A stretch of 64,000 nucleotides of DNA, taken from positions 310,001-374,000 of the forward strand of contig NZ_JACAWV010000023.1 of the NCBI RefSeq assembly GCF_013390595.1. The letters are read 5' to 3'. The notes below the pieces were generated by a model, which saw only the letters and a list, made by a program, of their open reading frames with translations, was not told the DNA's origin and ran no database searches. Positions 35,996 to 58,458 of this stretch are shown piece after piece. How positions within the stretch are numbered: position 1 is the stretch's first letter; every line of letters starts with the position of its first letter. This DNA comes from Rhizobium sp. RM (GTDB taxonomy: Bacteria > Pseudomonadota > Alphaproteobacteria > Rhizobiales > Rhizobiaceae). The translations under genes and the position numbers were made by a program.

Positions 35996-37207
35996 TTAGC
36001 GAACTGTATGACGCACGTCAGCGGGGTTTTCGGCCGCGCTTTTCCTGATCAGTTCACGACCGATGATCGTACGGATCATATGGCTCTGCGGCGCATGTGC
36101 TCTTGCAGTGATCGCATTCCGGTGATGGCGCTCCAGATGATAATCCCGGCGCAAACCGCGATTGCCGCCAAGCTCCAGTGCCAGATCGGTGATCGTTACC
36201 GCATTCTCGATGACCACATGGCGCACGGCCAGCGCATCGGTGCCGACCTGCTTCTTGTCATCGATATCGCGCCCGACAGAGGTCAGAAGGCGCCTGTTGG
36301 CGGCAATCAATACCTCGATTTGCCCGAGCGCTTCCTGAATTCTCGGTATCGATGAAAGTGGTGCGCCGAGGCTCGCCGGCACATGGCCGTTCAGATGCTT
36401 TAGCAGATCGTTGCGGGCTGAGACGGCGACGCCATGGTAGACAGCCGCCAGCATAACAAAGAAGTTATACCCGTCGACCTCATCCCGGCGAAGAGGCTCA
36501 CTCGCTGGCTGCTCGGCAACGACGTTTTCCAGAGGCACCCGGACGTCATTCAAAAGCAAGTCATCACTCGCGGTCGCAAACATGCCTGTCGCGTCCCAGG
36601 CCTTCTCACGGCCGATACCACCGAGGTCGAGAGGAACTAGCAACTGGATCAGTCGCGGCGTCTCCTCATCCGTTGTCGCCAGAACGATCGCCCATTTCAG
36701 ACCGGGTAGCCCGGTTACGAAACTCTTGCGACCGTTGACGACCCAGGCCTCTCCTTCGATGCGCGCGCTCGTCTCCGGCAAGCCACCGTGGGCTGGAGAA
36801 CCAATGCCTGGCTCGGCCTGCGCATTATTGAGCAAAGCCGTTCCGGAAAGATTCGCCGTCAAGACTTTGGCAGCAAGAACATCAGGCCACTTGCCACGGC
36901 GAATGCTGCCGTGAACACTATAATGCATCGCGAGAACAAGGGCGGTAGAGGGGTCACCTTCAGCAATCGCAGCGATGACAGCCTGGGCTGTCTCGATCCC
37001 TTCGCCCCACCCCCCGGTTTCTTTAGACTGGATCAGGCTGAGAAGGCCTGACCTGAACAGCTCGACAAAATTCTCTGCAGGAAATTCACCTGTCCTGTCG
37101 TGAGCGGCCGCGGTCGTACCGAAGCCCTCAGCAAGCGATCTGGCAATATCGACCGGGTCTAAAGTGGGCCTTTGTGACGACGCCACTGCGGAAATCTGGA
37201 CCGTCAT
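35996..37207 (-). CDS. Acyl-CoA-dehydrogenase-fold monooxygenase-like protein
   Basis: A 403-aa protein with the full acyl-CoA dehydrogenase fold: FRSGLLSLIQSKETGG and AEGDPSTALVLAMHY in the first domain, WVVNGRKSFVTGLPG in the beta domain, and a C-terminal ERHHRNAITARAHAPQ. The last motif resembles the His-Trp-Arg-Asn region of DszC and SfnB, flavin monooxygenases that add oxygen to sulfur, so monooxygenase activity is more likely than dehydrogenation. It overlaps the DszB-like gene by ATGA and forms a unit with that gene and a solute-binding protein gene. Confidence 0.82.
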   Translation of the reverse strand: MTVQISAVASSQRPTLDPVDIARSLAEGFGTTAAAHDRTGEFPAENFVELFRSGLLSLIQSKETGGWGEGIETAQAVIAAIAEGDPSTALVLAMHYSVHGSIRRGKWPDVLAAKVLTANLSGTALLNNAQAEPGIGSPAHGGLPETSARIEGEAWVVNGRKSFVTGLPGLKWAIVLATTDEETPRLIQLLVPLDLGGIGREKAWDATGMFATASDDLLLNDVRVPLENVVAEQPASEPLRRDEVDGYNFFVMLAAVYHGVAVSARNDLLKHLNGHVPASLGAPLSSIPRIQEALGQIEVLIAANRRLLTSVGRDIDDKKQVGTDALAVRHVVIENAVTITDLALELGGNRGLRRDYHLERHHRNAITARAHAPQSHMIRTIIGRELIRKSAAENPADVRHTVR

Positions 37208-38235
37208 GCAACTGCCCTTTCATCCGCCGGGACAAAACGGTCATCGATCCAGGTGTGAATGTCGAAATTGTCCTCAAGAAAACCCCATTCGTGCAGGAAA
37301 TCCTTGTAGTGGCTGATGGCCGCTAGGAGCTCCTTGTCGAGGCCAAGGCCGAGATGGCGATGAACATCGGGGCCATTGGCAGCCAGAACCTGTTCTTCAG
37401 TGGCACCGGCTTCACGCGCAATGAAGCGCCTTGTCTCTTCCGGGTGCTCTTCTGCCCAGATAGACGCCTTGCGGATTGCGTCAACCAGGCGCTCGACAAG
37501 ATCCGGACGTTCATCGGCCAGGCGAGCATCAACTGTCAGAACCCGCGGCGAACCCGAGTTAATGCGGATTTTCGGGTCGGGATGAAACCCGAACTCAATC
37601 ACCTGGACTGCGCCAATCAGATTTGCTGCAGAGACACCGGCCGTCCCTTTGACAAAGATCGCATCGACCTCCCCGCGCAAGAGTGCAGCGATCTCCTCTC
37701 CGAACGATTGTCGGCGCTTCAGACCGAACAGCGAAGGTCCCTCCTGCGTTTCCAACACGGAATGGTCCTGGACAATGTCGATAAGCTCAACATCGCCGAT
37801 CCGCAAACCTCCAAGAGACAAGGCCGAGACGACGCCCTTCAGCGCCGTTGCCCGCATGAAATCGACAATGCCCTCCGGCCTGCGCGGTACGCCAATGCGG
37901 CGCCCCGCTAGATCAGCAACCGTTCGAATACCTGTTTGCGGCAGCGTAATGATAGCCTGAAACTCGTCCGTCCATGTAATGCCGACGAGACGTGTATTGC
38001 GTCCTTCCGACCGGGCGCGAATGGGCGGTACGTTGCCACCGTGCCTGAATGACCATTCCAGCGTGTGGTTGAAATGGCTTTGCCTGATGGAACGATCCGG
38101 CGAATCGATGATCGATTTCAGGGCAATACCGACATCGCCAAAGGTTTTTTCGAGATAACCGAGCTGGACGGCCAGACCGACCGGGGTCGGAACCGGGCAG
38201 CGCGTATACCAGATTTCAGATAGTGGAGTGCTCAT
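37204..38235 (-). CDS. DszB-like desulfinase family protein, copy 1
   Basis: A 343-aa protein of the SsuA/NitT-like binding-protein fold that most resembles the desulfinase DszB. The DszB catalytic residues Cys27, His60, Arg70 and Gly73 have equivalents Cys13 (TRCPVPTP), His54, Arg64 and Gly67 (HF-8 residues-R-x-GG), with identical His-to-Arg and Arg-to-Gly spacing. No signal peptide is visible, so a cytoplasmic enzyme fits better than a transport protein. The start at 38235 has AAGGG upstream. It is translationally coupled to the acyl-CoA-dehydrogenase-fold gene. It would release sulfite from a sulfinate; the substrate is unknown and annotation as an ABC binding protein is the main alternative. 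Confidence 0.78.
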   Translation of the reverse strand: MSTPLSEIWYTRCPVPTPVGLAVQLGYLEKTFGDVGIALKSIIDSPDRSIRQSHFNHTLEWSFRHGGNVPPIRARSEGRNTRLVGITWTDEFQAIITLPQTGIRTVADLAGRRIGVPRRPEGIVDFMRATALKGVVSALSLGGLRIGDVELIDIVQDHSVLETQEGPSLFGLKRRQSFGEEIAALLRGEVDAIFVKGTAGVSAANLIGAVQVIEFGFHPDPKIRINSGSPRVLTVDARLADERPDLVERLVDAIRKASIWAEEHPEETRRFIAREAGATEEQVLAANGPDVHRHLGLGLDKELLAAISHYKDFLHEWGFLEDNFDIHTWIDDRFVPADERAVA

Positions 38236-38341
38236 CGCTTGACCCTTCATGACAGGCGGAACATCGACAGCGTCTGATGTCCGCGAATAGACCATTTGCT
38301 GAAGGCCCGCCGTTACCGGGCGGGCGATATTGCTGTTGAGT

Positions 38342-39949
38342 TCAGGACGCAACGATGTGCGCAAAGGCAAGGCTTCCTGAGACCCCTTCAGCCCCGACCG
38401 TGTGGCCCGATATCCGTTTGTTGAAGATGGTAATCTCAGGGGCAGCGACGATATCGATCGCAGGGACATCCTCGATCAGGATCTGCTGGATCTCTTTCCA
38501 CTGCGCAACGCGTTTGTCCGGATCAATTTCGACCGCCGCCGCTTCCAGCAGGGCATCAACCTTCGGGTTGCTGTAGGCCGCACCATTGGAAAAAGGCACG
38601 CCTTTCTTGAAGTTCTTTGACCAATAGAGACGCTGAACACCAACCGTCGGATCGAACAAATTGCTCATGCCCTCATAGGCAAAATCGAAATCGCGATCGG
38701 TGTAGATGCGTTTCGTATAGGTCGCGAAGTCCTGAGTACGCACCGTGACATCAATGCCGACCTTCGCCAAAGCCTGACGGATATAATCCGCTCCGCGCGG
38801 ATAAGCCTCGGTACTCGGAACGTAATCCAGATTGAGCTTGAAGCGAATTCCGTTTGCGTCTCGTTTGTAGCCTGCATCATCCAGCAGCGCTTCCGCAGCT
38901 TTGAGATCGATCGGATAGGTTTTCAGATCGTCGACAAACCATCGCGTCAGCTTTGGGTTGATAGGCCCGGTGATCGGCGATCCGTATCCGTAATTGACAG
39001 TATTGAAGATGACGTTGCGATCAATCACATGGGCAAACGCGCGACGAACGCGCACATCCTTGAACACCTCTTTCTCAAGATTGAATTCAACGCGGCTGAT
39101 GGAATTTGAGTACTGATAGCCATTGGTCTCAAAAGCCAGGTCCGGCAACTCCTTCAGCCGATCGAGGTCACTGTAGGCCACCGGCGTGCTTGGTGCGAGA
39201 TCGATCTCCCCGGTTTCGATCGCAATAGCTCGGGCGGCCGCGTCCGGAATGAAACGAACGATAAGTTGATCGATGTAGGGGCGTGGCGCATCCCAATAGT
39301 CTGGATTGCGCTCATAAACGACATGGCTGCCACGCACCCACGCCTTGAATTTAAACGCTCCCGTGCCGATTGGTGCCAGATTGACCGGGTTTTCGGTCAC
39401 CTTCGTCCCTTCATAGAGATGCTTGGGTACGATCGGCGTTTCAGCGGCTGCGAGCGCGGTGATCAGGTAAGGTGCGGGCTTCGATAGAACCAAGACTGCC
39501 GTCAGCTCGTCCGGAGTTTCCACATCAGTCAAATTCAGGAACGTGTTGCGCCCGCGCGGATGGACCTCCTTGAGGGTCCGGATTGAGAACGCGACATCGG
39601 CAGCGGTAAACGGCTTGCCATCATGCCACTTTACACCAGACCTCAGATTGAAGGTGTATCGCAGGCCATCGTCACTGATCGCCCAGGATTTTGCCAGAAG
39701 TGGTTGGGGGTTGAGGTCGAAGTCGTAGGTCAAAAGCCCCTCGGTGACCTTCGGCGATACATAGACGGAGTTGTAGGCGGTGTGGGCGATCGTTGTCAGA
39801 ACAGGTGGCTCGGATGATATCAGCAACGTCGCAGTGCCGCCGCGTGCCGGCTCAGCGGCACCCACCTTCAAACCCGACAGTGATGCCGCGCCGAGCGCGA
39901 CCGATGCCAGAAGGAAACTCCGTCTCGTCGTGCGATTGAAATCAGTCAT
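38342..39949 (-). CDS. Family 5 ABC solute-binding protein with twin-arginine signal (SBP 1)
   Basis: A 535-aa DppA/OppA-family periplasmic protein starting MTDFNRTTRRSFLLASVAL, a twin-arginine export signal. The signature YTFNLRSGVKWHDGKPF and the block NPDYWDAPRPYIDQLIVRF are present. Two other binding proteins of the island (48931-50526 and 51188-52783) share its layout. ATG at 39949 follows AAAAGGAGAGG. It is divergent from the only complete ABC permease/ATPase set of the island, which it probably serves, and is followed by a DszB-like gene. Confidence 0.9.
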   Translation of the reverse strand: MTDFNRTTRRSFLLASVALGAASLSGLKVGAAEPARGGTATLLISSEPPVLTTIAHTAYNSVYVSPKVTEGLLTYDFDLNPQPLLAKSWAISDDGLRYTFNLRSGVKWHDGKPFTAADVAFSIRTLKEVHPRGRNTFLNLTDVETPDELTAVLVLSKPAPYLITALAAAETPIVPKHLYEGTKVTENPVNLAPIGTGAFKFKAWVRGSHVVYERNPDYWDAPRPYIDQLIVRFIPDAAARAIAIETGEIDLAPSTPVAYSDLDRLKELPDLAFETNGYQYSNSISRVEFNLEKEVFKDVRVRRAFAHVIDRNVIFNTVNYGYGSPITGPINPKLTRWFVDDLKTYPIDLKAAEALLDDAGYKRDANGIRFKLNLDYVPSTEAYPRGADYIRQALAKVGIDVTVRTQDFATYTKRIYTDRDFDFAYEGMSNLFDPTVGVQRLYWSKNFKKGVPFSNGAAYSNPKVDALLEAAAVEIDPDKRVAQWKEIQQILIEDVPAIDIVAAPEITIFNKRISGHTVGAEGVSGSLAFAHIVAS

Positions 39950-40213
39950 GCGATATCCTCTCCTTTTGAGCGGTAAAAACCGGCAAACCAAACGCTGGCG
40001 CATTGAGAGAAGTTTCTTTCGTCATTGAGAGCCGTCGCGCCAAAAAACACTACAATTCACATTTTGTAGAAATTATCTTTTCTAATGCGGGTTATTTCCT
40101 GTAATTTAAGGAAAATAATTCCATTACTCTTTGACAAATTCCATAAAATTAGTCAACTAATGGCGCACTCCAGATGGAGCATAAGCGACTTGGACGGTTA
40201 CGGATGGGAGCCG
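39950..40213. promoter_or_regulatory. Divergent promoter gap with three inverted repeats
   Basis: The gap is very AT-rich and separates binding protein 1 (minus) from the permease operon (plus). It contains CTACAA-N8-TTGTAG (40050-40069), TTTCC-N10-GGAAA (40095-40114) and TTAGT-CA-ACTAA (40149-40160). At least one is likely an operator, since the two units encode parts of one importer. No protein-coding signal was accepted here. Confidence 0.45.
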
Positions 40214-41203
40214 ATGTCAAATTCGAAACGGATTTTCTCTCAGGCACGTCGTGTCGCCATTCAGGCGGTTCCGACAGTCCTTGGAATTGTCATTCTGAAC
40301 TTCTTTCTGCTGCAACTCGCACCGGGCGACGCAGCCGATGTCCTCGCTGCTGAAGCTGGTTCGGCGACGGTGGAGACCATGGCCGAAATCCGCTCGCGCT
40401 TCGGACTGGATCTGCCTGTTCTTCATCAGCTGATGAACTATCTGGGCAATCTGGCGCAGTTCAGCCTCGGTTATTCTCCGCGCTACGGCATGCCTGTTGC
40501 AGATCTCATCGGCCAGAGACTACCCGGGACCCTTGCGCTGATGGGCGCAGCACTCGGGATCGCCATCGTCGCAGGCGTATTCCTTGGTGCGATCATGGCG
40601 CTTTTCTCCGGCAAGCTGCCAGACCGGATTATCTCGATCGGATCTCTGATCTTCTATTCCGTGCCGGGGTTCTGGATCGGGTTGATGCTGATCCTGACAT
40701 TTTCGGTAAAGCTCGGCTGGCTTCCGTCGGGCGGGGACAGCACGATTGGTAGCAGTCTCACAGGCTTTGATGCGGTCGTCGACAGAGCCCGCTATATCGT
40801 CCTACCGGCTTTGTCGCTCGCCTTATATTTTCTGGCGATCTATGCGCGGCTGACCCGTGCCGCGATGCTGGAGGTCAAATCGCAGGACTACGTCCGCACG
40901 GCACGCGCGAAGGGTGTTTCGCCCTGGCGGCTGACAATTCGCCATATCCTGCGCAATGCACTCATTCCAATCACCACGATGGCCGGCATGCATATTGGCG
41001 GCCTGCTTGGCGGCGCCGTCGTCGTCGAGACAGTCTTCAGTTGGCCAGGCCTCGGTCGGCTGGCGTTCGAAGCCGTCATGGCCCGCGACTTCAGTGTCCT
41101 GCTTGGCATCCTGCTCCTGTCCTCTCTGGTCGTCATTGTCGTTAATGTAGCCGTAGACCTCCTGCAGGCATGGCTAGACCCTCGCATTGGAGAAAGCCGA
41201 TGA
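40214..41203 (+). CDS. Dpp/Opp-type ABC transporter permease (DppB-like)
   Basis: A 329-aa permease starting MSNSKRIFSQARRVAIQ, with LQLAPGDAADVLAAEAG and SRFGLDLPVLHQLMNYL, the DppB marks. The start at 40214 has GGGAG nearby; upstream in-frame ATGs at 40160 and earlier lack ribosome sites. It is the first gene of the plus-strand importer operon and overlaps the next gene by ATGA. Confidence 0.92.
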   Translation: MSNSKRIFSQARRVAIQAVPTVLGIVILNFFLLQLAPGDAADVLAAEAGSATVETMAEIRSRFGLDLPVLHQLMNYLGNLAQFSLGYSPRYGMPVADLIGQRLPGTLALMGAALGIAIVAGVFLGAIMALFSGKLPDRIISIGSLIFYSVPGFWIGLMLILTFSVKLGWLPSGGDSTIGSSLTGFDAVVDRARYIVLPALSLALYFLAIYARLTRAAMLEVKSQDYVRTARAKGVSPWRLTIRHILRNALIPITTMAGMHIGGLLGGAVVVETVFSWPGLGRLAFEAVMARDFSVLLGILLLSSLVVIVVNVAVDLLQAWLDPRIGESR

Positions 41204-42213
41204 GTTCCACGAACACCACCGCGCTCCTGCACGCTCCCGAGATCACCGCTCAGGCAAAGGCCGGCACGCTCGACACCCAAAACGCCTTGCCCCCCAAGGA
41301 AGACAAGACCTGGCCTTACCTTCATGCCCCTGACGCCCTGTCGGCCAGGACCGCATCGGTACCGCGCAGAGGATTGCGGCGGGAAATCAAGGTCTTCCTG
41401 AAAAACCCGAATGCGATTGTCGGGTTGCTCTTCCTTGCGACCGTAATCGTCACCGCACTTCTCGCCCCGCTTCTCTATCCCGGCGATCCCCTGGAGATGG
41501 TAGCGCGTCCGTTCCTTTGGCCCGGTCAGAACGGAGCCTATCCGCTTGGCACGGATTCCATGGGCCGCGATGTGCTGGCCGGGATTGTACATGGTGCACG
41601 CATCTCTTTGACCGTCGGCGTCGTTGCCACGCTGATCGGGCTCACGATCGGCATTTCGGTCGGCGCCTTTGCCGGATATTTCGGCGGCGTCATCGATGAC
41701 GTCCTCGTCAAGCTGATCGAAATCTTCCAGACATTGCCAAATTTTGTACTGCTCGTTGTACTTGTCGCCATTGCCCAGCCATCAGTGACGACGGTGACTT
41801 CCGCAATAGGCATCATTACCTGGCCCTTGGTCGCCCGGCTGACGCGCGCCGAATTCCGCGCAATCCGCGAAAAAGATTACGTCCTGGCGGCCCGCAGTCT
41901 GGGATACGGACACGCGCGGATTGTCTTCACCGAAATCCTGCCCAATGCCCTGCCTCCCATCATCGTGACGTCGTCGGTCATGGTCGCCGGTGCTATCCTG
42001 ATGGAAGCAGCATTGTCCTTTATGGGCCTCGGCGATCCCAACCGTGTCTCCTGGGGTTCGATGATCGGATCGGGACGCGACGTGATCAGAACCGCCTGGT
42101 ACCTCACCGCACTGCCGGGCCTTGCCATCGTCTTCACCGTCATATCGCTGAACCTCATCAGTGACGGGCTGAACGACGCCCTCAACCCGCGCTTTTCGGA
42201 GGAACGCAGTTGA
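41200..42213 (+). CDS. Dpp/Opp-type ABC transporter permease (DppC-like)
   Basis: A 337-aa permease with a long hydrophilic N-terminus (about 60 residues), then one helix, PLGTDSMGRDVLAGIVHG and the EAA loop REKDYVLAARSLGYG. It starts at 41200, overlapping the DppB-like stop, and ends overlapping the TTG of the ATPase gene. It forms the membrane channel with its DppB-like partner. Confidence 0.92.
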   Translation: MSSTNTTALLHAPEITAQAKAGTLDTQNALPPKEDKTWPYLHAPDALSARTASVPRRGLRREIKVFLKNPNAIVGLLFLATVIVTALLAPLLYPGDPLEMVARPFLWPGQNGAYPLGTDSMGRDVLAGIVHGARISLTVGVVATLIGLTIGISVGAFAGYFGGVIDDVLVKLIEIFQTLPNFVLLVVLVAIAQPSVTTVTSAIGIITWPLVARLTRAEFRAIREKDYVLAARSLGYGHARIVFTEILPNALPPIIVTSSVMVAGAILMEAALSFMGLGDPNRVSWGSMIGSGRDVIRTAWYLTALPGLAIVFTVISLNLISDGLNDALNPRFSEERS

Positions 42214-43208
42214 CCCCTTTGGTGGAAGTCCAGGATCTGTCCGTTGGCTTTGGTACGGCACAGCCCGTAAAAGGTGTGAGCTTCAAGGTGCACTCCGGTG
42301 AGATGCTGGCAATCGTTGGCGAAAGCGGCTCAGGCAAGTCCCTGACGGCCCTCTCTCTGATTGGACTGTTGCCATCGAACGCAAAGACCGGTGGCCGCAT
42401 TTTACTGGAAGGTAAGGATCTTTTACCTCTTTCCGAGCGCCGCTGGCGGTCTATTCGCGGCCGAGACATCGGCATGATCTTTCAGGAGCCGATGACCTCG
42501 CTCAACCCTGTGCTGACGGTTGGCGAACAGATCATTGAGGTCCTGCGCATCCACGAGCGCATTAATAAGCACGAGGCGCGCAAACGGGCAATCGAACTCC
42601 TGGAACTCGTCAACATTCCTGAAGCGCGACGCCGTGTCGACGACTACCCGCATCAGCTTTCAGGGGGCATGCGCCAGCGTGTGATGATCGCCATCGGCGT
42701 CGCCTGCAACCCGAAACTGCTGATCGCCGATGAAGCGACAACAGCGCTCGATGTCACGATACAGGCACAAATCCTACAGCTCCTCGACAATCTTCGACGC
42801 GACCTCAACATGGCCGTTGTGCTTATCACACACGACCTCGGCATCGTCGCACAATGGGCTGATCGGGTTATGGTGATGTATGCGGGACGAAAGGTGGAAG
42901 AGGGCTTGCCGGAGCCCGTGTTTTCCCATCCCTATCATCCCTATACGCGGGGATTGCTTGCCGCCTCGCCAAGAGCAGAGGACGGACAACACTACCGGGA
43001 TGGTCCACTGATCGAAATCCCGGGGTCCATCGTCTCCGCAACGGGTGAACGAGGCTGCGCCTTCCGTCCGCGCTGTCCGGACGCCCGCGGTTTCTGCGGG
43101 CAGTTTGTTCCCCCGCTCCGCTCCATTTCCGAAGGGCGTTATGCCGCCTGCCCGTTCGTATCCGAAATTTCAGGGGAGGTCTCCGATGGCGCTTTTGTCA
43201 GTGCATAA
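42210..43208 (+). CDS. Dipeptide-type ABC transporter ATP-binding protein (DppD-like)
   Basis: A 332-aa ATPase with Walker A GESGSGKS near residue 37, LSGGMRQR and LLIADEA (an Ala in place of the usual Pro after DE). The C-terminal cysteine-containing motif [16 protein letters not shown] is typical of DppD/OppD. The start is a TTG at 42210 with a strong GGAGG seven bases before it, overlapping the TGA of the permease gene. Confidence 0.92.
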
Positions 43209-44121: not shown

Positions 44122-44140
44122 CCTCAAGGAGTACTTACCA

Positions 44141-45196: not shown

Positions 45197-45255
45197 CAAC
45201 GGGCCTGCGGCAGGAAACGTGCCGCAGGCTTTTCCAATTTTCAAGGAATAGCGCG

Positions 45256-46497: not shown

Positions 46498-46518
46498 CGC
46501 CGGCGAAGAGTAAAGCCC

Positions 46519-47493: not shown

Positions 47494-47517
47494 CGCGCCC
47501 GTCCCACTTCAGGCGCG
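47494..47517. terminator. Hairpin between convergent genes
   Basis: CGCGCC (47494-47499) and GGCGCG (47512-47517) form a 6-bp stem spanning the junction of the LysR gene and the convergent monooxygenase gene, touching the stop of the latter. A bidirectional terminator is possible; there is no U-run. Confidence 0.3.
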
Positions 47518-48861: not shown

Positions 48862-48930
48862 GAGATCCTCATCCTTTTGCCGTTTGCGGAAAAATGTGGC
48901 GCGTCCGGACAATCCGACGCGCCGCAGTCA

Positions 48931-50526
48931 TCAGGCTTCTTTCGCGAGCCAAGCTTTGGCGAGATTGCCGCTTAAGCCCTCAGCACCAACGGCGTAGTCC
49001 TTGACCTTGACGTTTCCGACCACCGGCTGAACAGGAGATACGAGGTTGATGACCGGGAGATCCTTTGCAACGATGGCCTGGAATTCCTTGAAAAAGGCCG
49101 CGCGCTTCTCGATATCGGGCTCCACAGATGCAGCCTCCAACAACCGGTCTACCTCCGGGTTCTCGTAATGGCTGGCATTGGAGAACGGCAGTCCGATCTT
49201 GAAGTTCTTGCTCCAGTAAACACGCTGCACGCCGGCAGTCGGATCGAAGGTGTTCGAAAGCGACTCGACCGACAAGTCCCATGCCCGATCAGTATAGACC
49301 ACCTTCACATAGGTTCCGAAATCGAACTTCTGGATTTCGGCTTCGATGCCGATCTTGGCGAGAGCCTGGGCTATGAAATCCGAATAGGTCTGAGGGTTGA
49401 ATGGGTTCGTCGTCACACGCAACTTGAAACGCTTGCCGTTTTCCTTGCGTGGGAAACCCGCCTCATCCAGGAGTTTCTCGGAAAGCGCGGTGTCGAACTT
49501 CGCAAAGCCGATATCGGGATTGTGAAATTTCGGCAAACCGGGGCTGATCGGCGTTGGAGACGGAACGGCATATCCGTAAAGCACCACATCGATGAGCGCG
49601 GGAACATCGATCGCATGTGCGATTGCCTGCCGCACTTTGAGGTTTTTCAATATCTCGTTTTCGAGATTGATGACGAGCTGGTTCTGTTGGCCCGCATAGG
49701 CATAGATGCGATCATCCACCTTAAGGTTTGGAACTGATTTCAGTCGCTCGAGGTCAGCAAGCGCGACTGGGTTTGGGCCAATATCGCCCTCTCCTGTCTC
49801 GAGCGCTGCGGCACGCGAACCTGCATCGTTGATCAGACGGATGATAACTCGTTCCAGATAGGGACGCGGCGCATCCCAATAGTCCGCATTCCGTTCTAGC
49901 AGGATATGGCTGCCTGGCACCCACTCCTTCAACACGAACGGTCCACTACCTATGATTTGCTCCGGCTTCGGATTATCTGTCGGCTTGAACGTTTCGAAGA
50001 TGTGCTTCGGCACAATCGGCGATTCCGATGATGCGAGCGCTGTGATGAGCCCCGGTGCAGGCTTCGCAAGCTTGACACGCGCAACCAGCGGGTCTGATGA
50101 ATCGACACTCTCTACCTGTGAAAAGGTTGCGCGGCCGCGGGGATGTGCTTCCTTTAGGCGCAGGATAGAGAACGCGACGTCTGCAGAGGTTAGCGGCTTT
50201 CCGTCATGGAATTTTGCCCCAGGCTGCAAATGAAAAACATACTCCAGTCCGTCTGCAGAAACCGACCATTCCTTCGCGAGACTTGGCTTTGGAGAAAGGT
50301 CGTAGTCGTAGGTGAGAAGTCCATCGTAAATCTTCGAGCCAATAAATTGCGGACCGCCCGCACTGGTGTTGATCGCGACAAGCTGCGTCGGCTCGGGGAA
50401 ATAGACAATCTTCAGCGTCCCGCCGGAAACTGGCTCTTCCGCTGCTGCAAAAGCACCGCCGGGAAGTGAGACGATAGTGCCGGCAGCAAGCGCAATCTTG
50501 TGAAACTGACGTCTGGAAAGGTTCAT
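48931..50526 (-). CDS. Family 5 ABC solute-binding protein with twin-arginine signal (SBP 2)
   Basis: A 531-aa DppA/OppA-family protein. The N-terminus MNLSRRQFHKIALAAGTIV is a clear twin-arginine signal. YVFHLQPGAKFHDGKPL and NADYWDAPRPYLERVIIRL are shared with SBP 1. It precedes the DszA-like monooxygenase gene by 69 bases and has no permease genes of its own, so it probably docks with the importer at 40214-44121. Confidence 0.9.
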   Translation of the reverse strand: MNLSRRQFHKIALAAGTIVSLPGGAFAAAEEPVSGGTLKIVYFPEPTQLVAINTSAGGPQFIGSKIYDGLLTYDYDLSPKPSLAKEWSVSADGLEYVFHLQPGAKFHDGKPLTSADVAFSILRLKEAHPRGRATFSQVESVDSSDPLVARVKLAKPAPGLITALASSESPIVPKHIFETFKPTDNPKPEQIIGSGPFVLKEWVPGSHILLERNADYWDAPRPYLERVIIRLINDAGSRAAALETGEGDIGPNPVALADLERLKSVPNLKVDDRIYAYAGQQNQLVINLENEILKNLKVRQAIAHAIDVPALIDVVLYGYAVPSPTPISPGLPKFHNPDIGFAKFDTALSEKLLDEAGFPRKENGKRFKLRVTTNPFNPQTYSDFIAQALAKIGIEAEIQKFDFGTYVKVVYTDRAWDLSVESLSNTFDPTAGVQRVYWSKNFKIGLPFSNASHYENPEVDRLLEAASVEPDIEKRAAFFKEFQAIVAKDLPVINLVSPVQPVVGNVKVKDYAVGAEGLSGNLAKAWLAKEA

Positions 50527-50556
50527 CTTTGTCTCCGAAAAAAGTAGGGCCGTCCT

Positions 50557-50895
50557 TCAGTGGAGGCGCGGAAATCCGTGGCGATCAGCCAGCAATTCGA
50601 GAATGCGTTTGGTGTCCCGCACAAAGCGTCTGTCTCCATACGCGGCGGCATCATCCGGGGGATTTTCGCCCAAGATCAGGAGTGGCAACGACTGATTGTT
50701 CTCCCCGACCTCGGCAATGACAGCAGCCCGTGGCCTTTGGAAATCGACCCGCTGGATATCCAGCGAAGCAGCAATTTCAGGGAACGAAGCGAGCAATCCT
50801 TCAACCTGATTGCAATGCGGGCAGACAAACCGGACACCTGGTTGTTTGGGATCTTCGAAACCGGGAGAAATCAGAAAAAGTGTATCTTTGGCCAT
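50557..50895 (-). CDS. DUF3088 family protein (thioredoxin-like CxxC)
   Basis: A 112-aa protein starting MAKDTLFLISPGFEDP, with FVCPHCNQVEGLLASFPE carrying a Cys-Pro-His-Cys pair near residue 24, then LDIQRVDFQRPRAAVI and LPLLILGE. This is the DUF3088 layout, resembling a thioredoxin fold. The start at 50895 matches the usual start of the family; an ATG at 50907 is also possible and both have weak ribosome sites. It lies 30 bases upstream of binding protein 2 on the same strand. A redox role in the sulfur pathway is possible but not shown. Confidence 0.75.
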   Translation of the reverse strand: MAKDTLFLISPGFEDPKQPGVRFVCPHCNQVEGLLASFPEIAASLDIQRVDFQRPRAAVIAEVGENNQSLPLLILGENPPDDAAAYGDRRFVRDTKRILELLADRHGFPRLH

Positions 50896-51138
50896 GCCAT
50901 CCATCATTGCTAACTGCGATGGAGCGAGAGTGCCGGGAGGTTGGGAGAGCGTCCAGAAACGTATTCTTGCCTCGAAAAGAAGAATAAATTTGCGAACCAG
51001 CCACCCAGAAACGGCTTTCTTCAGAAGAATTTTCCGATGCGAATTTATTCCGGTACCGCTCTCCATCAAGCAATGCGATTGCCGGAAATTTCAAAGGGAC
51101 GCGAATGCCGAAAACCGTCGCCAATCAGGCCGAGGCAT

Positions 51139-51162: not shown

Positions 51163-51187
51163 ATTCTTGGGAAAGAGGCCTATGACC

Positions 51188-52783
51188 TCAGCTTTGGGGC
51201 TGTTTCCAGGCGTTGGCGAGGTCGCCGTAGGCGATATCGATGGTGGTCACAAGCGATTGCAGGCTGGCATTTCGCAAGATGACCGTCGGTAGCGCGACAA
51301 TGGAGAAGTTCGGCAAATCATCACCGGTGATCGTTTGGATCTCCTTGAATTGCGCCGCGCGCTTTGTCTCGTCCACCTCAACGGCCGCAGCACGGAAAAG
51401 GTCATCGACTCTAGGGTTGTTGTAGTGCGCTGCGTTGACATAAGGAGCCGGGTTCTTGATCCCGTCCGACCAGTAGAGGCGCTGGACCCCGGCCGTCGGG
51501 TCAAACAGGCGGCTGATCCCGTTTACGTTTATGTCGAAGCCGCGCTCAGTATAGACCCGCTTGATGAATGTCGCGAGATCGCCTTCAAGGATCTCCACCT
51601 TCACTCCTATCTTGCCGAAAGACGAACGCAGGTAATCGGCAGTTTTGCGGAAGGCATCCGATGGCAGGAATGCAAGCCTCAATGTAAATCGCGTGCCATC
51701 CGCCCCCTTCGGGAATCCAGCCTGATCGAGCAGCGCATTCGATTTTGCGAGGTCGAAGGGATAGTTGAAAGGCGCCTCATCATTATAGGCAGTGAACACC
51801 TTGGGGATGTTCGAGCCTGCCGGTTTTGCCGTTCCAAAAAAGATTGCGTCATTGATAAAATCACGATCGATCGCGTGCGCCAGCGCGTGGCGCACCTCTT
51901 TCTTGGCCAGAACCGGATTTTCGAGATTGAATTCGAAGACTTCGGCATTGTTCAGATAGGCATCGGTATAAACTTCGACGGCGAGTTTGGGGTTTTGCCG
52001 CAACCGCTCCAGATCGCCGTAAGACACATCCGCCGCGTAATCCGCTTCACCGGTTTCGACGGCAATCGTCGCAGATGCCGCATCGGCAAAAAAGCGCGCG
52101 ACAAACCCGTCGAGATACGGCAGTCCTGCCTGCCAATAGTTGGGGTTACGCTTCAATTTGACGTAGCTACCGCGTTTCCATTCCTCAAAGACGAAGGGAC
52201 CGGTACCGATCGGGGCGTTGCCATTCGGGCTTTCGTTGAAGTTTTCCGACGGATATGCGTGTGCTGGCAGGATTGGCGTCTCACCGCCCGTCAGTGCCCT
52301 TAACAGATAAGGCGCGGGCTTTGACAATACGACCACCGCAATATGGGGTTCAGGTGTTTCCACATCGGCAATATTGTCGAATGTGATGCGCCCGCGAGGG
52401 CCAACCTTCTTGAAGGCAAGCAAGGAGAACTTCACATCCGTCGCGGTGAAATCCCTCCCGTCATGCCATTTCACGCCTTTACGCAAACGGAATGTATGAC
52501 GCAGACCGTCGGCAGAGGTTTCCCAGCTTTCTGCCAGGACCGGATGCGGATTGAACTCGCTGTCAAAGCGCACCAGACCTTCCAGGATCTTTGTTGAAAT
52601 CGCTCTGGTACGGGTATTGCTGTCGGAGAGCGGTACGAGCGTCGTTGGCTCACCAAGACCGGCAAAGGTCACGATGCCGCCCTTTGAAGGCTCGTCGGAG
52701 GCGGCAAACGACACGGATGGGAGCAATGCTGCTCCACCAAATGCGGCTGTCAAAAGCAATGTCTTACGTCTTGTCAAATCCAT
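51188..52783 (-). CDS. Family 5 ABC solute-binding protein with twin-arginine-like signal (SBP 3)
   Basis: A 531-aa DppA/OppA-family protein with the N-terminus MDLTRRKTLLLTAAFGG, a twin-arginine-type signal, then HTFRLRKGVKWHDGRDF and NPNYWQAGLPYLDGFVARF. It is the last gene of the unit DszB-like 2, NmrA-like, SsuD/SfnG-like monooxygenase, M20 hydrolase, SBP 3, and is closed by a terminator. Like SBP 1 and SBP 2 it has no permease nearby. Confidence 0.9.
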   Translation of the reverse strand: MDLTRRKTLLLTAAFGGAALLPSVSFAASDEPSKGGIVTFAGLGEPTTLVPLSDSNTRTRAISTKILEGLVRFDSEFNPHPVLAESWETSADGLRHTFRLRKGVKWHDGRDFTATDVKFSLLAFKKVGPRGRITFDNIADVETPEPHIAVVVLSKPAPYLLRALTGGETPILPAHAYPSENFNESPNGNAPIGTGPFVFEEWKRGSYVKLKRNPNYWQAGLPYLDGFVARFFADAASATIAVETGEADYAADVSYGDLERLRQNPKLAVEVYTDAYLNNAEVFEFNLENPVLAKKEVRHALAHAIDRDFINDAIFFGTAKPAGSNIPKVFTAYNDEAPFNYPFDLAKSNALLDQAGFPKGADGTRFTLRLAFLPSDAFRKTADYLRSSFGKIGVKVEILEGDLATFIKRVYTERGFDINVNGISRLFDPTAGVQRLYWSDGIKNPAPYVNAAHYNNPRVDDLFRAAAVEVDETKRAAQFKEIQTITGDDLPNFSIVALPTVILRNASLQSLVTTIDIAYGDLANAWKQPQS

Positions 52784-52803
52784 GATTGTTTCCTCTTCGT
52801 GTT

Positions 52804-54009
52804 TTATGCCGGAACCGCCGTGAGGCGCTGCTCGATCAGACGCGCAAACAATGTGGCCCCCACCGGCAAGATCGCGTCGTCGACAATGAAACCTGGGTTA
52901 TGCGCAGGAACGTTTCCCGCATGACCAAGCGTGAAAAAGGCACCAGGAGCGTGCTTCAGGAAGTCTGCGAAGTCCTCGCTGCCCATGAAGCGACCAGGCT
53001 CGGTCGAAACCCTTGCGTCGCCCAGGACATCGCGTGCGACCTCCGCAACGATATCGACAGACGCGTCGTCGTTGGTGAGGACCGAGAAAATGTCTCTGAT
53101 ATCGACGTCCGCTGTCAGGCCGTGGGCGGCAGCAACATGTTCCGAAATCGTTGCGATCCGCTCGCGGATCGTCGCGCGAACTTGATCGGAAAACGCCCTC
53201 ACCGTTCCGGCAATCGACGCCGTTTCTGGGATGACGTTGTAGGCCGAACCGGCCTCAATTCGAGTGATCGATAGGACCGCTGGATCAATCGGCGAAACGT
53301 TGCGGCTCACGATCGTTTGCAATGACTGGATGAGTTCGCCGATTGCCGGTACCGGGTCATGGGAAACATCCGGATGTGCGGCATGTGCACCTTTGCCCTT
53401 CAGCCTAATATCGAAGAAGTCAGCACCAGCGAGAATTATGCCGGGAGAGACTTTGAGGTGGTTGGGCGCGGCATGTGAGGAGTTATGCAGTCCATAAATC
53501 TCATCGACGGGAAAGTCCTTGAACAACCCATCGGCGATCATGGCACGCGCACCGCCAAGACCTTCTTCCGCAGGCTGGAAGATGAAAACGACGGTGCCGG
53601 CGAAATCGCGAGTTTCGGCCAGATAACGCGCAGCCCCCAAAAGGATCGTCGTGTGCGCATCGTGACCGCAGCCATGAAATTTGCCGGGATAGATCGAGGC
53701 ATAGGGCAAACCCGTCTCCTCCGGCATCGGCAGGGCATCCATGTCGGCGCGCAGACCAACCGAGCGATTACCCGCATGTTTTCCACGCAAGATACCGACC
53801 ACGCCTGTTTTGCCATATCCGCGATGCACCTCGATACCCCAGGACGCAAGTTTCTCGGCGACGATCCCGGAGGTTCGAACCTCTTCAAAGCCGATTTCCG
53901 GGTGCTGATGCAGATCGTGACGGATCGACACCAGTTCGGGAATGTAGGTAACAATCCTGTCGATGACTTTCGGTGCTGGGGTGTTTGTGGGGTCTACGGC
54001 GATATTCAC
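52804..54009 (-). CDS. M20 family amidohydrolase (hippurate/IAA-amino acid hydrolase type)
   Basis: A 401-aa metal-dependent amidohydrolase. VSIRHDLHQHPEIGFEE near residue 27, then HGCGHDAHTTILLGAA with the metal-binding Cys and His residues, FQPAEEGLGGARAM, and the C-terminal GSEDFADFLKHAPGAF are diagnostic. These enzymes cleave N-acyl amino acids. In this operon it may free an amino acid or amine from a conjugated organosulfur compound before or after desulfurisation. Confidence 0.9.
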   Translation of the reverse strand: MNIAVDPTNTPAPKVIDRIVTYIPELVSIRHDLHQHPEIGFEEVRTSGIVAEKLASWGIEVHRGYGKTGVVGILRGKHAGNRSVGLRADMDALPMPEETGLPYASIYPGKFHGCGHDAHTTILLGAARYLAETRDFAGTVVFIFQPAEEGLGGARAMIADGLFKDFPVDEIYGLHNSSHAAPNHLKVSPGIILAGADFFDIRLKGKGAHAAHPDVSHDPVPAIGELIQSLQTIVSRNVSPIDPAVLSITRIEAGSAYNVIPETASIAGTVRAFSDQVRATIRERIATISEHVAAAHGLTADVDIRDIFSVLTNDDASVDIVAEVARDVLGDARVSTEPGRFMGSEDFADFLKHAPGAFFTLGHAGNVPAHNPGFIVDDAILPVGATLFARLIEQRLTAVPA

Positions 54010-54101
54010 GGCATATCCTTTGGCAATAGAAGTCCCTGCCGCTACCGGAAGGTGGCGAGTGATCAGGGACGTTTGATGGTGAAACAGAGGTGGCGAAGGC
54101 G

Positions 54102-55271
54102 TCAGAGCCTTAAGCCGGCCTCTTTCATCAGTGGCAGGATCCGGTCGGCGAAATATTCGAGGTCTTCCCGGAAATCGTAGAAATTGAGCTGAACGCCGTC
54201 GATCCCCGCTTTCTTGAGGCCAATCAACTGTTCAACGACCTGTTCAGGCGAACCGATAATCTCGATATTGCCGCCGAGATTGCGTCCCTGCTTGTGGCGC
54301 GCATCGCCACGTCCCCGCCAGGCATGCGCATCGCTCTCATAATTGTTGGTAGCAAAAGCACGTGTACCCGGCTGTGGCTTTCCTGCCTCGATGGCGTCAG
54401 CATACGCAAAGGCTTCAGCTTCAGTATCACGGCTGACAATTATCGGATTGATGAGTGTCTTGACCTGACGGCCATGTGCGATTGCACGGTTTTTAACATT
54501 GGCGACATGGGCCGGGAGTGTTTCCAATGCACTATCGATGTGCGCGCCACCAGGCGATGTCACGAAAACCAGGTCGGAATGACGTGCGGCAAAGTCAATC
54601 CCGGCAGGCGAACCCGTCGCGGTTACCAGAGGTGGACGACCAAAGGACGGCTTTGGTGTGATCCAGCCGTTGTTGACCGCCCAGGGATTGAGCTTTCCTT
54701 CGTAGGAGTAGTTTTCGGTTTCACCCCACAATCGGTGCAGCACATCAAACAGTTCACCCGCCATGTCGTAACGTTTGTCGTGTTCGATCCTTTGCCAACC
54801 AAACATCTCATGCTCGATGGCCCGGTGCCCGGTGACGATATTAATGCCCCAACGGCCATTGGCGATGTGATCCAGTGTCGCCCCGTATTTGGCGAGATGG
54901 AGGGGATGCAAGGGGCCATAAAGGACGTGGATGGTCGAAATTAGCAGGATGCTTTTCGTAACCGCCGCCATAGCACCAAGCGCGATAAAACTGTCGAGGG
55001 AGGAATCACCGTCATAGCCGCCCTTCGGCAGCCATTGCGTGCGACTGAAGGCGATTTCGAAACCCAGCTCCTCAGCGCGTTTGACCAGCTCGACATTGTA
55101 ATCGAATGTCCAGCTATTGCTCGTTGGCAGGCTGGAAAAGTTGATATCCTGCAAATTGAGAAAGAGCCCGAGCATCAACGGCTGTTGTGCAGCACGGCTT
55201 AACGGGCTTTCCTCAAAATCGAACGGTGCCTTCAATTCGAGTGTATCGCTGACCGGCGCTGTCAGTGCCAT
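54102..55271 (-). CDS. SsuD/SfnG-like FMNH2-dependent monooxygenase
   Basis: A 389-aa luciferase-fold enzyme. WTFDYNVELVKRAEELGFE, GRWGINIVTGHRAIEHEMFG, WITPKPSFGRPPLVTATGS, and the C-terminal VQLNFYDFREDLEYFADRIL resemble dimethylsulfone monooxygenase SfnG and related sulfur or pyrimidine (RutA) monooxygenases. It needs reduced FMN, probably from the reductase at 30268. Its ATG overlaps the NmrA-like gene by 10 bases. An alkyl or aryl sulfone or sulfonate is a likely substrate. Confidence 0.85.
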   Translation of the reverse strand: MALTAPVSDTLELKAPFDFEESPLSRAAQQPLMLGLFLNLQDINFSSLPTSNSWTFDYNVELVKRAEELGFEIAFSRTQWLPKGGYDGDSSLDSFIALGAMAAVTKSILLISTIHVLYGPLHPLHLAKYGATLDHIANGRWGINIVTGHRAIEHEMFGWQRIEHDKRYDMAGELFDVLHRLWGETENYSYEGKLNPWAVNNGWITPKPSFGRPPLVTATGSPAGIDFAARHSDLVFVTSPGGAHIDSALETLPAHVANVKNRAIAHGRQVKTLINPIIVSRDTEAEAFAYADAIEAGKPQPGTRAFATNNYESDAHAWRGRGDARHKQGRNLGGNIEIIGSPEQVVEQLIGLKKAGIDGVQLNFYDFREDLEYFADRILPLMKEAGLRL

Positions 55272-56158
55272 GATTTTTCTCCCTTCGGATTATGTGTAGG
55301 AATGTCGGCGCCTGCCAGGCGCGCGCTGAGGTAAGCGTCCACGGTGCGTGGTTCGCGGCCGGTGATCCGACGAACGTCATCACTCAACGAGGACGCCAAA
55401 CCTTCCGCGATCAGCACGCCGAACTCACCAACTGCCTTTTGCTCAAAGGCGCCAGGATGTAATGGCAGCGCGGTGCGAACGGTCTGAGACACGCCGATCG
55501 GGCGATGCAAGATACGCGCGGCAATCCGCCCGATTTCGAGTGCTGTCAGCGCTTTGCCACCCGTCAGGACAAAGGCACCGTTCAACGGTGTCTCTTTCGT
55601 CAATGCCGCAACGGAAACATCCGCGATATCATCCGCATCGATGTAGGAGACGGCGGCACCGGAGTAACGGTCAGGCAAATCCTCCCGGCTGAGAATTGCC
55701 GCGATTGTGGGCTCAAGTGCGACCTGCATCCACGCATTGGGTCTCAGGATCGTGTGTGCGACACCGCTTTCAGCCAGATGGGCTTCCACCAAGGCGTGAG
55801 CCGATCCGGAAACCGAGCGATCTGCATTTCGTATCGTCCAGTCCGAACCGGATACCTTGACGATACGCTCGATCCCGGCAGAAGCTGCAGCATCAACTGC
55901 CGCGTTTTGATGTGATGCCAGCGCTTCGCTGATCGGCGACAGCAGAAAGAGTGCATCGATATCAACCAATGCCTCTTTCAAGCTGGGTGGATCCGCAAAG
56001 TCACCTTGAGCGACCTCCACAGCATCTCGCCACAAGCGACGCGCCTCCTCTGGTCTGCGCGTCAGAATGCGCACCTCGGAATTCTTTTTCAGAAGGCGCT
56101 CGACGACAAGTTTTCCGAGTTTGCCTGTCGCTCCTGTGACGAGAATTCTCCGAGCCAT
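55262..56158 (-). CDS. NmrA-like NAD(P)-binding oxidoreductase
   Basis: A 298-aa atypical short-chain dehydrogenase. MARRILVTGATGKLGKLVVE carries the GATGxxG nucleotide motif at residues 8-14. The middle has LFLLSPISEAL and VKVSGSDW, usual for NmrA/quinone reductase QOR2-type proteins, which may be reductases or redox sensors. The ATG at 56158 follows GAGG; a GTG four codons earlier is less likely. It lies 8 bases after the DszB-like 2 stop. Confidence 0.85.
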   Translation of the reverse strand: MARRILVTGATGKLGKLVVERLLKKNSEVRILTRRPEEARRLWRDAVEVAQGDFADPPSLKEALVDIDALFLLSPISEALASHQNAAVDAAASAGIERIVKVSGSDWTIRNADRSVSGSAHALVEAHLAESGVAHTILRPNAWMQVALEPTIAAILSREDLPDRYSGAAVSYIDADDIADVSVAALTKETPLNGAFVLTGGKALTALEIGRIAARILHRPIGVSQTVRTALPLHPGAFEQKAVGEFGVLIAEGLASSLSDDVRRITGREPRTVDAYLSARLAGADIPTHNPKGEKSWH

Positions 56159-56166
56159 GTCCGACC

Positions 56167-57219
56167 TCACAAATCGCGGGACTGATGTGCCGCCAAGGGG
56201 CGTGCATCAACCCAATCAAGAACGTCGAAATCCGCAGATATGAAGTGCCACTCCAACAGGAAGTCCTTGAAGTGCACGATCGCTTCTACCTCTGCCGGAT
56301 CGAGAGTGAGGCCAAGGTTTTGACTGACATTCGGACCATTGGCGGCGAGCACCGCATCCTCGCTTACGCCAATTTCACGCGCGATAAACCTGACGGCGTC
56401 GCCGGGATTTTCTTTCGCCCAGCCGGAGACCCGCTGCACCGTCGCGACCAATTCCGTTACGAGGTCCGGACGTTCATTTGCAAAAGTCGCGTCGACCGTG
56501 AGTGGTCGCGGCGTGCCGTTGTTGATGCGAATTTTCGGGTCAGGGTGAAATCCCGTCGACACGACAACAACAGCACCGATGAGGTTGGCGACCGTTATCC
56601 CCTCCGCACCCTTGACGAAAAACGCATCAATGTCACCGCGATGCAGAGCTGCAATTTCCTCCCCATAGGGAAAACGCCTTTTCAGCCCAAGAAACCGCTC
56701 GTCATCTGGACGGAGCAAGACCGACTCGTTTGCAACGAGGTCGACAAGCTCGACGTCGCTCGTTCTCAGCCCGGAAATCGTCAGCGCTGAAACAATGCCC
56801 TTTAACGATGTCGCGCGCTGAAAATCGATTGTCTCGTTCGGCCTTCTGGGAAGCCCAACACGCCGCCCCTTCAGATCCGCGCCATTGCGGATACCGCTCG
56901 CGGGCAATGCGATAACAGCCTGAAACTCGTCTGTTCTTGTCAGACCGATCAGGCGTGTCTGACGACCACCCGATCGCGCCCATATTGGTGGAATGCTACC
57001 CCCCTGCCGAAACGACCACTCCAGACTGTGATCAAAATGGCTTTGGCGGATGGAAGGGTCTGCCGCATCGCGTATTGAGGAGACATGGATGGCGTGGTGA
57101 GCGAAGTTTTCCGCGACCCAACCAAGTTGAACGGCGATCGACAACGGCGTCGGCGCAGGACAGCGTGTATACCAGATTGTCTCCGGTTGGAGAGTTTTGC
57201 GTAGTGCCGCCTCGACCAT
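56167..57219 (-). CDS. DszB-like desulfinase family protein, copy 2
   Basis: A 350-aa paralogue of the protein at 37204-38235. The DszB catalytic residues are matched by Cys20 (YTRCPAPTP), His61 and Arg71, with GG at 73-74, in the same spacing as in copy 1. There is no signal peptide. It is the first gene of an operon that also encodes an SsuD/SfnG-like monooxygenase, an M20 hydrolase and SBP 3, ended by a terminator. It probably cleaves a sulfinate made by the monooxygenase. An SsuA-like transport role cannot be excluded by sequence alone. Confidence 0.78.
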   Translation of the reverse strand: MVEAALRKTLQPETIWYTRCPAPTPLSIAVQLGWVAENFAHHAIHVSSIRDAADPSIRQSHFDHSLEWSFRQGGSIPPIWARSGGRQTRLIGLTRTDEFQAVIALPASGIRNGADLKGRRVGLPRRPNETIDFQRATSLKGIVSALTISGLRTSDVELVDLVANESVLLRPDDERFLGLKRRFPYGEEIAALHRGDIDAFFVKGAEGITVANLIGAVVVVSTGFHPDPKIRINNGTPRPLTVDATFANERPDLVTELVATVQRVSGWAKENPGDAVRFIAREIGVSEDAVLAANGPNVSQNLGLTLDPAEVEAIVHFKDFLLEWHFISADFDVLDWVDARPLAAHQSRDL

Positions 57220-58443: not shown

Positions 58444-58458
58444 TTGGCACGAAAGAGG

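Follow-up and report, generated by a model that had tools for sequence, protein, structure and literature searches.

The 64,000-nucleotide stretch of Rhizobium sp. RM at positions 310,001 to 374,000 of contig NZ_JACAWV010000023.1 (assembly GCF_013390595.1), referred to below as the window, raises the question of whether two of its genes, whose products are called DszB1 and DszB2 here, encode desulfinases of the DszB type or solute-binding proteins for transport. DszB is an enzyme of fuel biodesulfurization and limits the speed of the 4S pathway (PMC12168087; PMC4839641). We consider it probable that DszB1 and DszB2 are cytosolic, cofactor-free desulfinases, which belong to a sister clade of DszB and would act at the end of a system scavenging sulfur under starvation.

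DszB1 (343 residues; 37204..38235, minus strand) and DszB2 (350 residues; 56167..57219, minus strand) are 59% identical across 332 residues. In a phmmer search of PDB chains, DszB is the top match to both (2de2; E 1.1e-18 for DszB1 and 2.2e-9 for DszB2), and SsuA-type binding proteins follow behind the two DszB entries with best E values of 0.014 and 0.02. C13, H54, R64, G66 and G67 of DszB1 align with Cys27, His60, Arg70, Gly72 and Gly73 of DszB, and DszB2 has C20, H61, R71 and G74. These five columns are invariant across ten sequences from rhizobia, Paracoccus, Sphingobium and Streptomyces and including DszB itself, and the same catalytic columns are invariant in a 56-row alignment picked from the matches. 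The His-to-Gly spacing is 13 residues in both proteins, the same as in DszB (H60-G73), whereas the Cys-to-His spacing is 41 in both versus 33 in DszB. The original prediction of two genes keeping the key catalytic residues in order with the DszB spacing from His to Gly is thus borne out for both minus-strand genes. Among 620 six-frame open frames of at least 200 residues from the window and 25 other stretches of the same genome, three contain the motif C-x(35-45)-H-x(9)-R-x-G-G; two of the stretches share a 10-kb overlap, so that part of the frames is counted double. Two of the three are DszB1 and DszB2, and the third is found at 5993-6955 of L192. The catalytic Cys is the sole Cys of DszB1 and of DszB2 (P0001 and P0002), and exactly one Cys is present in 234 of the 241 proteins P0001-P0241; that DszB, too, has one Cys has been pointed out in work on sulfur-sparing proteins (PMC8557817). 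A hydroxyl residue is kept at the position of Ser25, which positions His60 in DszB, being Thr in 99% of 87 family rows; L011, L014, P0331 and P0333 had been excluded from this set, which includes nine rows (five different genes) with Ser for Cys, plus many near-copies. In the predicted models, DszB heads the fold lists, followed by SsuA folds, with structure-aligned identities to DszB of 28% and 24%. A PHROGs search with DszB1 gave zero matches. Judged by sequence, catalytic residues, profile and predicted fold, DszB1 and DszB2 are likely to be DszB-type desulfinases.

Density functional work on DszB favours a route in which Cys27 protonates the aromatic carbon and SO2 leaves with the assistance of His60 (PMC6100217). 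Because the same residues are kept, the same reaction may be assumed for DszB1 and DszB2. This mechanism needs a protonatable carbon (aryl, heteroaryl or alkenyl), and the range of substrates would therefore be limited. The Cys/His/Arg site might alternatively serve another C–X protonolysis such as decarboxylation within a periplasmic-binding-protein fold, since the fold lists include 4,5-dihydroxyphthalate decarboxylase (9jp7) and Thi5; this is very improbable, as both score lower than DszB by about 14 to 19 Z units and the neighbouring genes are sulfur-related.

DszB1 and DszB2 share the overall fold and the Pfam family PF09084 with the sulfonate-binding proteins SsuA/TauA, their scores of 42.9 and 25.2 bits being over the gathering score (20.5). 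They might be orphan SsuA-type solute-binding proteins, or cytosolic binding or sensor proteins, without enzyme activity, in line with these matches, with the SsuA folds behind DszB in the fold lists and with natural Cys-to-Ser copies in the family; the inactive C27S form of DszB has been crystallised with substrate (PMC6100217). Yet the scores for NCBIfam SsuA_fam (80.1 and 74.3 bits) do not reach its cut-off of 163.5. Inspection upholds the claim that signal peptides are lacking: only 8 residues in DszB1 and 14 in DszB2 precede the conserved WYTRCP, no hydrophobic stretch stands before it, and the first strand in the models starts at residue 7 and 14, respectively. WYTRCP is present in 268 of 333 fetched proteins, with a median of 10 preceding residues (range 4-51). 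No SsuB/SsuC-type partner is found among the proteins scanned between 29257 and 57219, where the ATP-binding cassette (ABC) permeases and ATPases are of the Dpp type and are served by their own SBP_bac_5 proteins. Because the catalytic triad is kept, unlike in SsuA/TauA, and both the signal peptide and the adjoining SsuB/SsuC are missing, the binding-protein explanation is ranked low and appears improbable. Database names lean the other way: among 120 rows of relatives, the named ones are mostly ABC transporter substrate-binding proteins, as had been expected of automatic annotation, although six rows bear desulfinase-type names (desulfurase, hydroxybiphenyl-sulfinate or Dibenzothiophene desulfurization enzyme B).

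The relation to DszB was examined in a tree of 103 rows, from which the partial L011 and L014 were excluded and to which eight transport proteins of the same genome were added as controls; the controls have long branches, flagged by the tree program. The DszB/TdsB clade (95/93) and the DszB1/DszB2 clade (99/96) are separate, so that DszB1 and DszB2 lie outside the characterised DszB/TdsB clade, and the two clades would be sisters if the transport controls are taken as the outgroup. Seven of the eight controls lie outside both clades; the eighth, L006, falls within the family with a branch of 4.78 and 12 Cys, and is probably a wrong open frame. DszB1 and DszB2 belong to different subclades (100/100 and 97/100). 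Both subclades hold Devosia, Chelatococcus and Neorhizobium members, and therefore the duplication predates these genera, with both copies co-retained in several lineages.

The substrate pocket seems to differ from that of DszB. Phe61, Trp155 and Phe203 of DszB are possible hydrophobic contacts (PMC6100217). Trp155, invariant in DszB, stands opposite a gap in the family, and Trp145 is not retained; among the 87 rows, the Phe203 column is Gly in 69% and the Tyr63 column is His in 94%, while Phe61 is kept in 77%. Because Trp155 and Phe203 of the aromatic pocket are missing in the alignments, the substrate is probably not dibenzothiophene, which supports what had been proposed. The 56-row alignment shows no variation at Lys196, Arg224 and Asn226, which are absent from the 15 DszB-clade rows; some distant members of the DszB1/DszB2 clade also lack them. 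From these columns, we infer that the close family acts on a more polar substrate than DszB does.

Relatives were sought in the genome_contigs collection (84,980 species genomes) with the single family pattern WYT[RN]CP[VA]P, which yielded at least 593 matches and at least 567 confirmed relatives. Neighbourhood figures are for the best 80 of these at least 567 relatives, a set biased to close relatives and to the Cys motif by the use of one pattern, and the counts are non-independent owing to kinship of the species by descent. Homologues (40% identity, 60% coverage) are found within 10 kb for SBP_bac_5 in 79 loci, DppB and DppC in 77 each, DppD and DppF in 75 each, aldo/keto reductase in 70, the ACAD-fold flavoprotein C1 in 69, the SfnB-like protein in 59, the SfnG-like protein in 46, the NmrA-like protein in 22, LysR in 18 and flavin reductase in 15. 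In 65 of the 80 loci, C1 and the DszB1 homologue are adjacent and share a strand. Sixty-three loci are from Rhizobiaceae, Mesorhizobium and other Rhizobiales, and 17 are from Devosia, Chelatococcus, Acetobacter, Lampropedia, Variovorax, Comamonas, Kaistia or Burkholderiaceae; in these 17 loci, SBP_bac_5 is found 17 times, DppB 15, C1 and SfnG-like 10 each, and aldo/keto reductase and SfnB-like 9 each. A neighbourhood control with L001-L008 is uninformative, as those loci span merely about 3.0-3.7 kb. The DszB1/DszB2 gene set is real and well conserved, not a chance arrangement. Among named relatives, those closest to DszB1 come from Agrobacterium (84-87% identity). Annotated plasmid relatives with the set are found on Allorhizobium pAtS4e, which is collinear, in Rhizobium and, with a DszB2-like protein, in Paracoccus, and two family members flank an ACAD gene on Sinorhizobium meliloti pSymA. 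Occurrence is patchy, with the family in at least 6 of 151 genomes of the same taxonomic family, 7 of 397 of the order and 7 of 398 of the phylum, this genome included; these are lower bounds, because limited candidates were scored per genome (at most 14, then 5).

DszB-like proteins also occur in other settings. A Sphingobium plasmid (L021) has three DszB-like frames (6177-7265, 8383-9813 and 12001-13056) beside ssuABC and ssuD, the first of which is without the His. A distant DszB-like protein of Rhizobium leguminosarum (L024, 11974-13140) keeps the triad and has five Cys; it sits between the genes for 2-hydroxyacyl-CoA dehydratase and its activase, with rhodaneses and a sulfate permease nearby, and this different context perhaps means a different chemistry.

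In the window, the genes around DszB1 and DszB2 form an island (29257-57219), whose operon borders are drawn from gene spacing only. Operon 1 on the minus strand comprises SBP_bac_5 protein A (38342..40003; PF00496, 308.6 bits; one Cys and two Met), DszB1 and C1 (35996..37207; Pfam ACAD domains), the last two overlapping by four bases. A divergent plus-strand set (40085-47493) encodes dppB-dppC-dppD-dppF-like permeases and ATPases (40085..44121, with starts at 40085, 41170, 42210 and about 43186; PF00528, PF00005, PF08352), an aldo/keto reductase (44135..45196; PF00248; start picked within a longer frame), an SfnB/DszC-like flavin monooxygenase (45256..46497) and a LysR-type regulator (46519..47493; PF00126, PF03466). 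Operon 2 runs on the minus strand from 57219 down to 47509 and comprises DszB2, an NmrA-like NAD(P)H-binding protein (55262..56170; PF13460/PF05368), an SfnG-like two-component flavin mononucleotide (FMN) monooxygenase (54102..55271), an M20 amidohydrolase of the aminoacylase type (52804..54009; TIGR01891, 415 bits, above cut-off), SBP_bac_5 protein C (51188..52783), a DUF3088 protein (50557..51069; PF11287), SBP_bac_5 protein B (48931..50526) and an NtaA/DmoA-family FMN monooxygenase (47509..48912). Its first two genes overlap by 4 bases and the NmrA-like and SfnG-like genes by 10 bases, and proteins B and C (both PF00496, 531 residues) have zero Cys or Met after the start. The left flank has a serine hydrolase and, on the minus strand, an SfnB/DszC-like gene recognised in its N-terminal part by profile matches (29257..30222), a flavin reductase-like protein (30268..30813; PF01613, 133.6 bits) as a possible supplier of FMNH2, a true SsuD alkanesulfonate monooxygenase (30993..32219; TIGR03565, 576.8 bits against a cut-off of 518.2) and a YeeE/TsuA-like sulfur transporter with a two-domain rhodanese (32724..34975; PF04143 and PF00581, below NCBIfam cut-offs). 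The transporter and rhodanese are very low in Cys/Met and possibly serve thiosulfate. Adjoining the island at 19638-28197 are genes labelled by sequence reading as iron-type ABC uptake, three binding proteins, two methyltransferases and a cupredoxin-like protein. A separate unit at 57415-63654, in which Cys/Met is not low, has a dihydrodipicolinate synthase-like, a glyoxalase-like, an M24 and an M20 protein, a dehydrogenase and two GntR-type regulators, the dehydrogenase and the second regulator being labelled by reading only.

The original prediction had placed DszA-, DszC- and DszD-type genes in this island, which holds at the level of families. The protein at 45256 has 304.4 bits for NCBIfam SfnB (cut-off 430.9) and matches 8cda, MsuC (6u76) and TdsC (5xb8) among solved structures; C1 matches DszC with E 1.5e-15, behind other ACAD proteins (5z8t, E 2.1e-51). 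With 131.6 and 74.8 bits against the NCBIfam DszC cut-off of 850, both are DszC-type only in a wide sense as far as their sequences tell. The SfnG-like protein is under the TIGR04021 cut-off (184.7 versus 382.95 bits) and matches the solved dimethylsulfone monooxygenase 8t0u with E 5.3e-43, and the flavin reductase-like protein is under all NCBIfam cut-offs listed. The protein at 47509 is over the TIGR03860 cut-off (580.2 versus 279.7 bits), and its solved matches are, in order, YtnJ of B. subtilis (E about 1e-106), nitrilotriacetate monooxygenase (4e-100), 7e36_B (2e-92) and DszA (1e-91). The best solved match of the M20 protein is YxeP (E 6.3e-77). A 4S-type route, as had been proposed, is accordingly less well supported and matched only in part: the protein at 47509 is nearer to YtnJ than to DszA, C1 is nearer to other ACAD proteins than to DszC and the M20 protein is nearest to YxeP. 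Overlooked in that prediction were C1, which overlaps DszB1, the low content of Cys and Met in the island, the true SsuD and the M20 gene.

Cys plus Met make up 122 of 8714 residues (1.40%) in the 24 genes of the island, the bounds and starts of which were chosen by us, versus 183 of 5031 (3.64%) in 17 other listed genes of the window. The content is 0.58% in DszB1 and 0.29% in DszB2, and higher (1.92-4.40%) in 8 measured frames of 22 NMT1-family matches; in a sample of 295 open frames the median is 3.31% and 1.7% of frames have 0.7% or less. Within the genome, the island proteins are three of the six lowest among 30 measured SBP_bac_5 proteins (of 33 matches) and two of the three lowest among 10 ACAD proteins. 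Across the 80 loci, medians are 0.3-1.3% for SBP_bac_5, aldo/keto reductase, SfnB-like, C1 and DszB-type proteins, 1.5% for SfnG-like proteins and 2.3-4.0% for importer permeases and ATPases. Such low Cys/Met content points to abundant proteins made under sulfur scarcity. Two other stretches of the genome, L205 (contig C25, 30001-50000; about 7717-17194) and L206 (contig C19, 364001-384000), have Cys/Met-poor groups with SBP_bac_5 and luciferase-type genes, that of L205 additionally with an ACAD-type gene; the triad motif is absent from both in the scan, and they are probably further sulfur-scavenging islands.

In the proposed system, a Dpp-type ABC importer with SBP_bac_5 proteins would take up a small polar organosulfur compound, the sulfur of which would be oxidised by ACAD-fold flavin monooxygenases (C1 and SfnB-like). 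A luciferase-fold FMN monooxygenase (SfnG-like or NtaA-like) would then cleave one C–S bond to give a sulfinate, and the DszB-type enzyme would protonate the sulfinate-bearing carbon with its single Cys to release SO2 or sulfite for assimilation, the carbonyl product being handled presumably by the aldo/keto reductase. The S-oxidation and C–S cleavage steps are drawn from what is known of the families of DszC, SfnG and DszA/CmoJ; we also infer the desulfination itself, the step order, the regulation by starvation and the polarity of the substrate. To judge from the M20 amidohydrolase encoded next to DszB2, one substrate or more may be N-acylated.

Several findings weigh against this proposal. 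Kept residues and fold fall short of proving turnover, and natural Cys-to-Ser copies, with zero Cys, occur within the family. Four of them (L118, 1456-2844; L119, 1348-2553; L120, 1468-2520; L121, 1468-2520), from four genomes that all belong to a single family within the same phylum, form one clade, each in tandem with a Cys-bearing copy, and a fifth (L083, 1846-2889), from a Devosia metagenome-assembled genome, additionally has Tyr for His; all five are reminiscent of the C27S variant of DszB made in the laboratory. Two distant relatives that fall within the DszB1/DszB2 clade of the tree, P0331 and P0333, are also without the Cys, and P0331 is without the His. The pocket claim is drawn from aligned sequences rather than from coordinates. 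As the mechanism calculated for DszB protonates an aromatic carbon (PMC6100217), other chemistry would be required for an alkyl sulfinate produced by SfnG-like cleavage. The luciferase-like monooxygenases of the island rank only 6th, 10th and 11th lowest of 21 in Cys/Met, failing to separate because the genome has other low-sulfur genes of this type, and three SBP_bac_5 proteins outside the island are equally low. NtaA-like and M20 homologues are within 10 kb in just 8 and 3 of the 80 loci, respectively, and operon 2 may therefore serve a separate pathway.

The substrate has two leads. The action of Sinorhizobium KT55 on benzothiophene hints at aromatic or thiophenic thioethers, and Dpp import together with the M20 protein hints at N-acyl or peptide-like S-conjugates. 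Under the first, the module would be a true 4S-like route with DszC-DszA-DszB logic for other substrates, that is, thiophenic or other aromatic thioethers such as benzothiophene. Sinorhizobium sp. KT55 desulfurizes benzothiophene (PMC3868597; PMC6630823), and the DszB1/DszB2 family is present in Sinorhizobium; E. coli extracts with the desulfinase operon of Gordonia terrae C-6 convert benzothiophene, and peptide ABC transporter genes also rise (PMC3868597). This route is nevertheless rather unlikely, as Trp155 and Phe203 of the DszB pocket are not retained and a Dpp importer would be unexpected for hydrophobic thiophenes. The second lead takes in the YtnJ-like protein at 47509 and the YxeP-like M20 protein, which suggest salvage of N-acyl or S-alkyl-cysteine; YtnJ is taken by us to be CmoJ. 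Operon 2 might be devoted to salvage of S-alkylcysteine or mercapturate in the manner of CmoO/CmoJ and an N-acetylcysteine deacetylase, leaving DszB2 a side-product or secondary role. CmoJ cleaves S-alkylcysteine sulfoxides (PMC10863075), and N-acetylcysteine is deacetylated by ScmP, YhaA and YtnL (PMC12757645), ScmP being equated here with YxeP since yxe is given there as the old name of the scm cluster. That operon 2 works in this way is doubtful: in large families little can be concluded from the closest solved structure, the product of CmoJ is cysteine sulfenic acid, for which no desulfinase is required, and in Paracoccus a DszB2 homologue occurs with NmrA-like, M20 aminoacylase and SBP_bac_5 genes but without an NtaA-like gene. 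As for the desulfinases themselves, it is conceivable, though tentative, that a large and mostly misnamed clade, to which petroleum-desulfurizing DszB would be just a small sister, releases sulfur from natural polar organosulfur compounds of soil, imported whole by Dpp, with Lys196, Arg224 and Asn226 holding the charged part in place of the hydrophobic pocket of DszB and the two paralogues acting on two substrates; peptide- or N-acyl-amino-acid-linked aryl, heteroaryl or alkenyl thioethers are the candidates.

Among known systems, the Rhodococcus 4S enzyme DszB has in common with DszB1 and DszB2 the fold, the single catalytic Cys, the His, the Arg-x-Gly-Gly and the hydroxyl at Ser25/Thr. Low Cys/Met content (for DszB, PMC8557817) and ACAD-fold and luciferase-fold monooxygenase neighbours are shared as well, whereas DszB1 and DszB2 have extra invariant polar residues and an attached Dpp importer and are not in a dszABC operon. 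The Pseudomonas dimethyl sulfone route (SfnG, MsuC and MsuD) likewise relies on flavoproteins of the SfnG-like and SfnB/MsuC-like types found in the island, which has SsuD nearby. That route oxidises the sulfinate to a sulfonate, while a desulfinase here would free sulfite directly. The B. subtilis salvage by CmoO/CmoJ and ScmP shares with the island a YtnJ-like monooxygenase, an M20 amidohydrolase and ABC import, but not the DszB-type enzyme, the DszC-type flavoproteins or the SBP_bac_5/Dpp importer. The bdsABC operon of G. terrae C-6 similarly joins a desulfinase to monooxygenases of the ACAD and luciferase types, and ABC transporter genes have neighbouring numbers, although its homology to the 4S enzymes is low, the neighbouring transporters are of the sulfonate/nitrate/taurine type and the likeness is by description, not by sequence (PMC3868597). 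The proteins that increase in Rhodococcus IGTS8 on dibenzothiophene include a chromosomal SsuA/DszB protein (PMC8557817), and 'putative desulfinases' low in Cys and Met increase in sulfur-starved Gordonia NB4-1Y (PMC7661421). No dszB is reported in a paper on a sulfolane degrader (PMC6395730). The DszB peptide printed in a Chelatococcus proteomics paper (PMC4839641) is an exact stretch of Rhodococcus DszB and is irrelevant to the DszB1/DszB2 clade; one Chelatococcus does carry a DszB1/DszB2-type module (L089). The enzyme type is therefore already known, while neither the DszB1/DszB2 clade and its Dpp-linked module nor its substrate was found among the open-licence papers listed by the literature searches.

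If the sister clade is a common sulfur-scavenging enzyme of soil bacteria, the natural origin and the substrates of DszB chemistry become testable, and the family is a source of many natural desulfinases to be compared with DszB. If this is true, many entries named ABC transporter substrate-binding protein would need renaming, and rhizobia, along with other bacteria of soil and plants, would contribute a hitherto overlooked route to the turnover of organic sulfur in soil.

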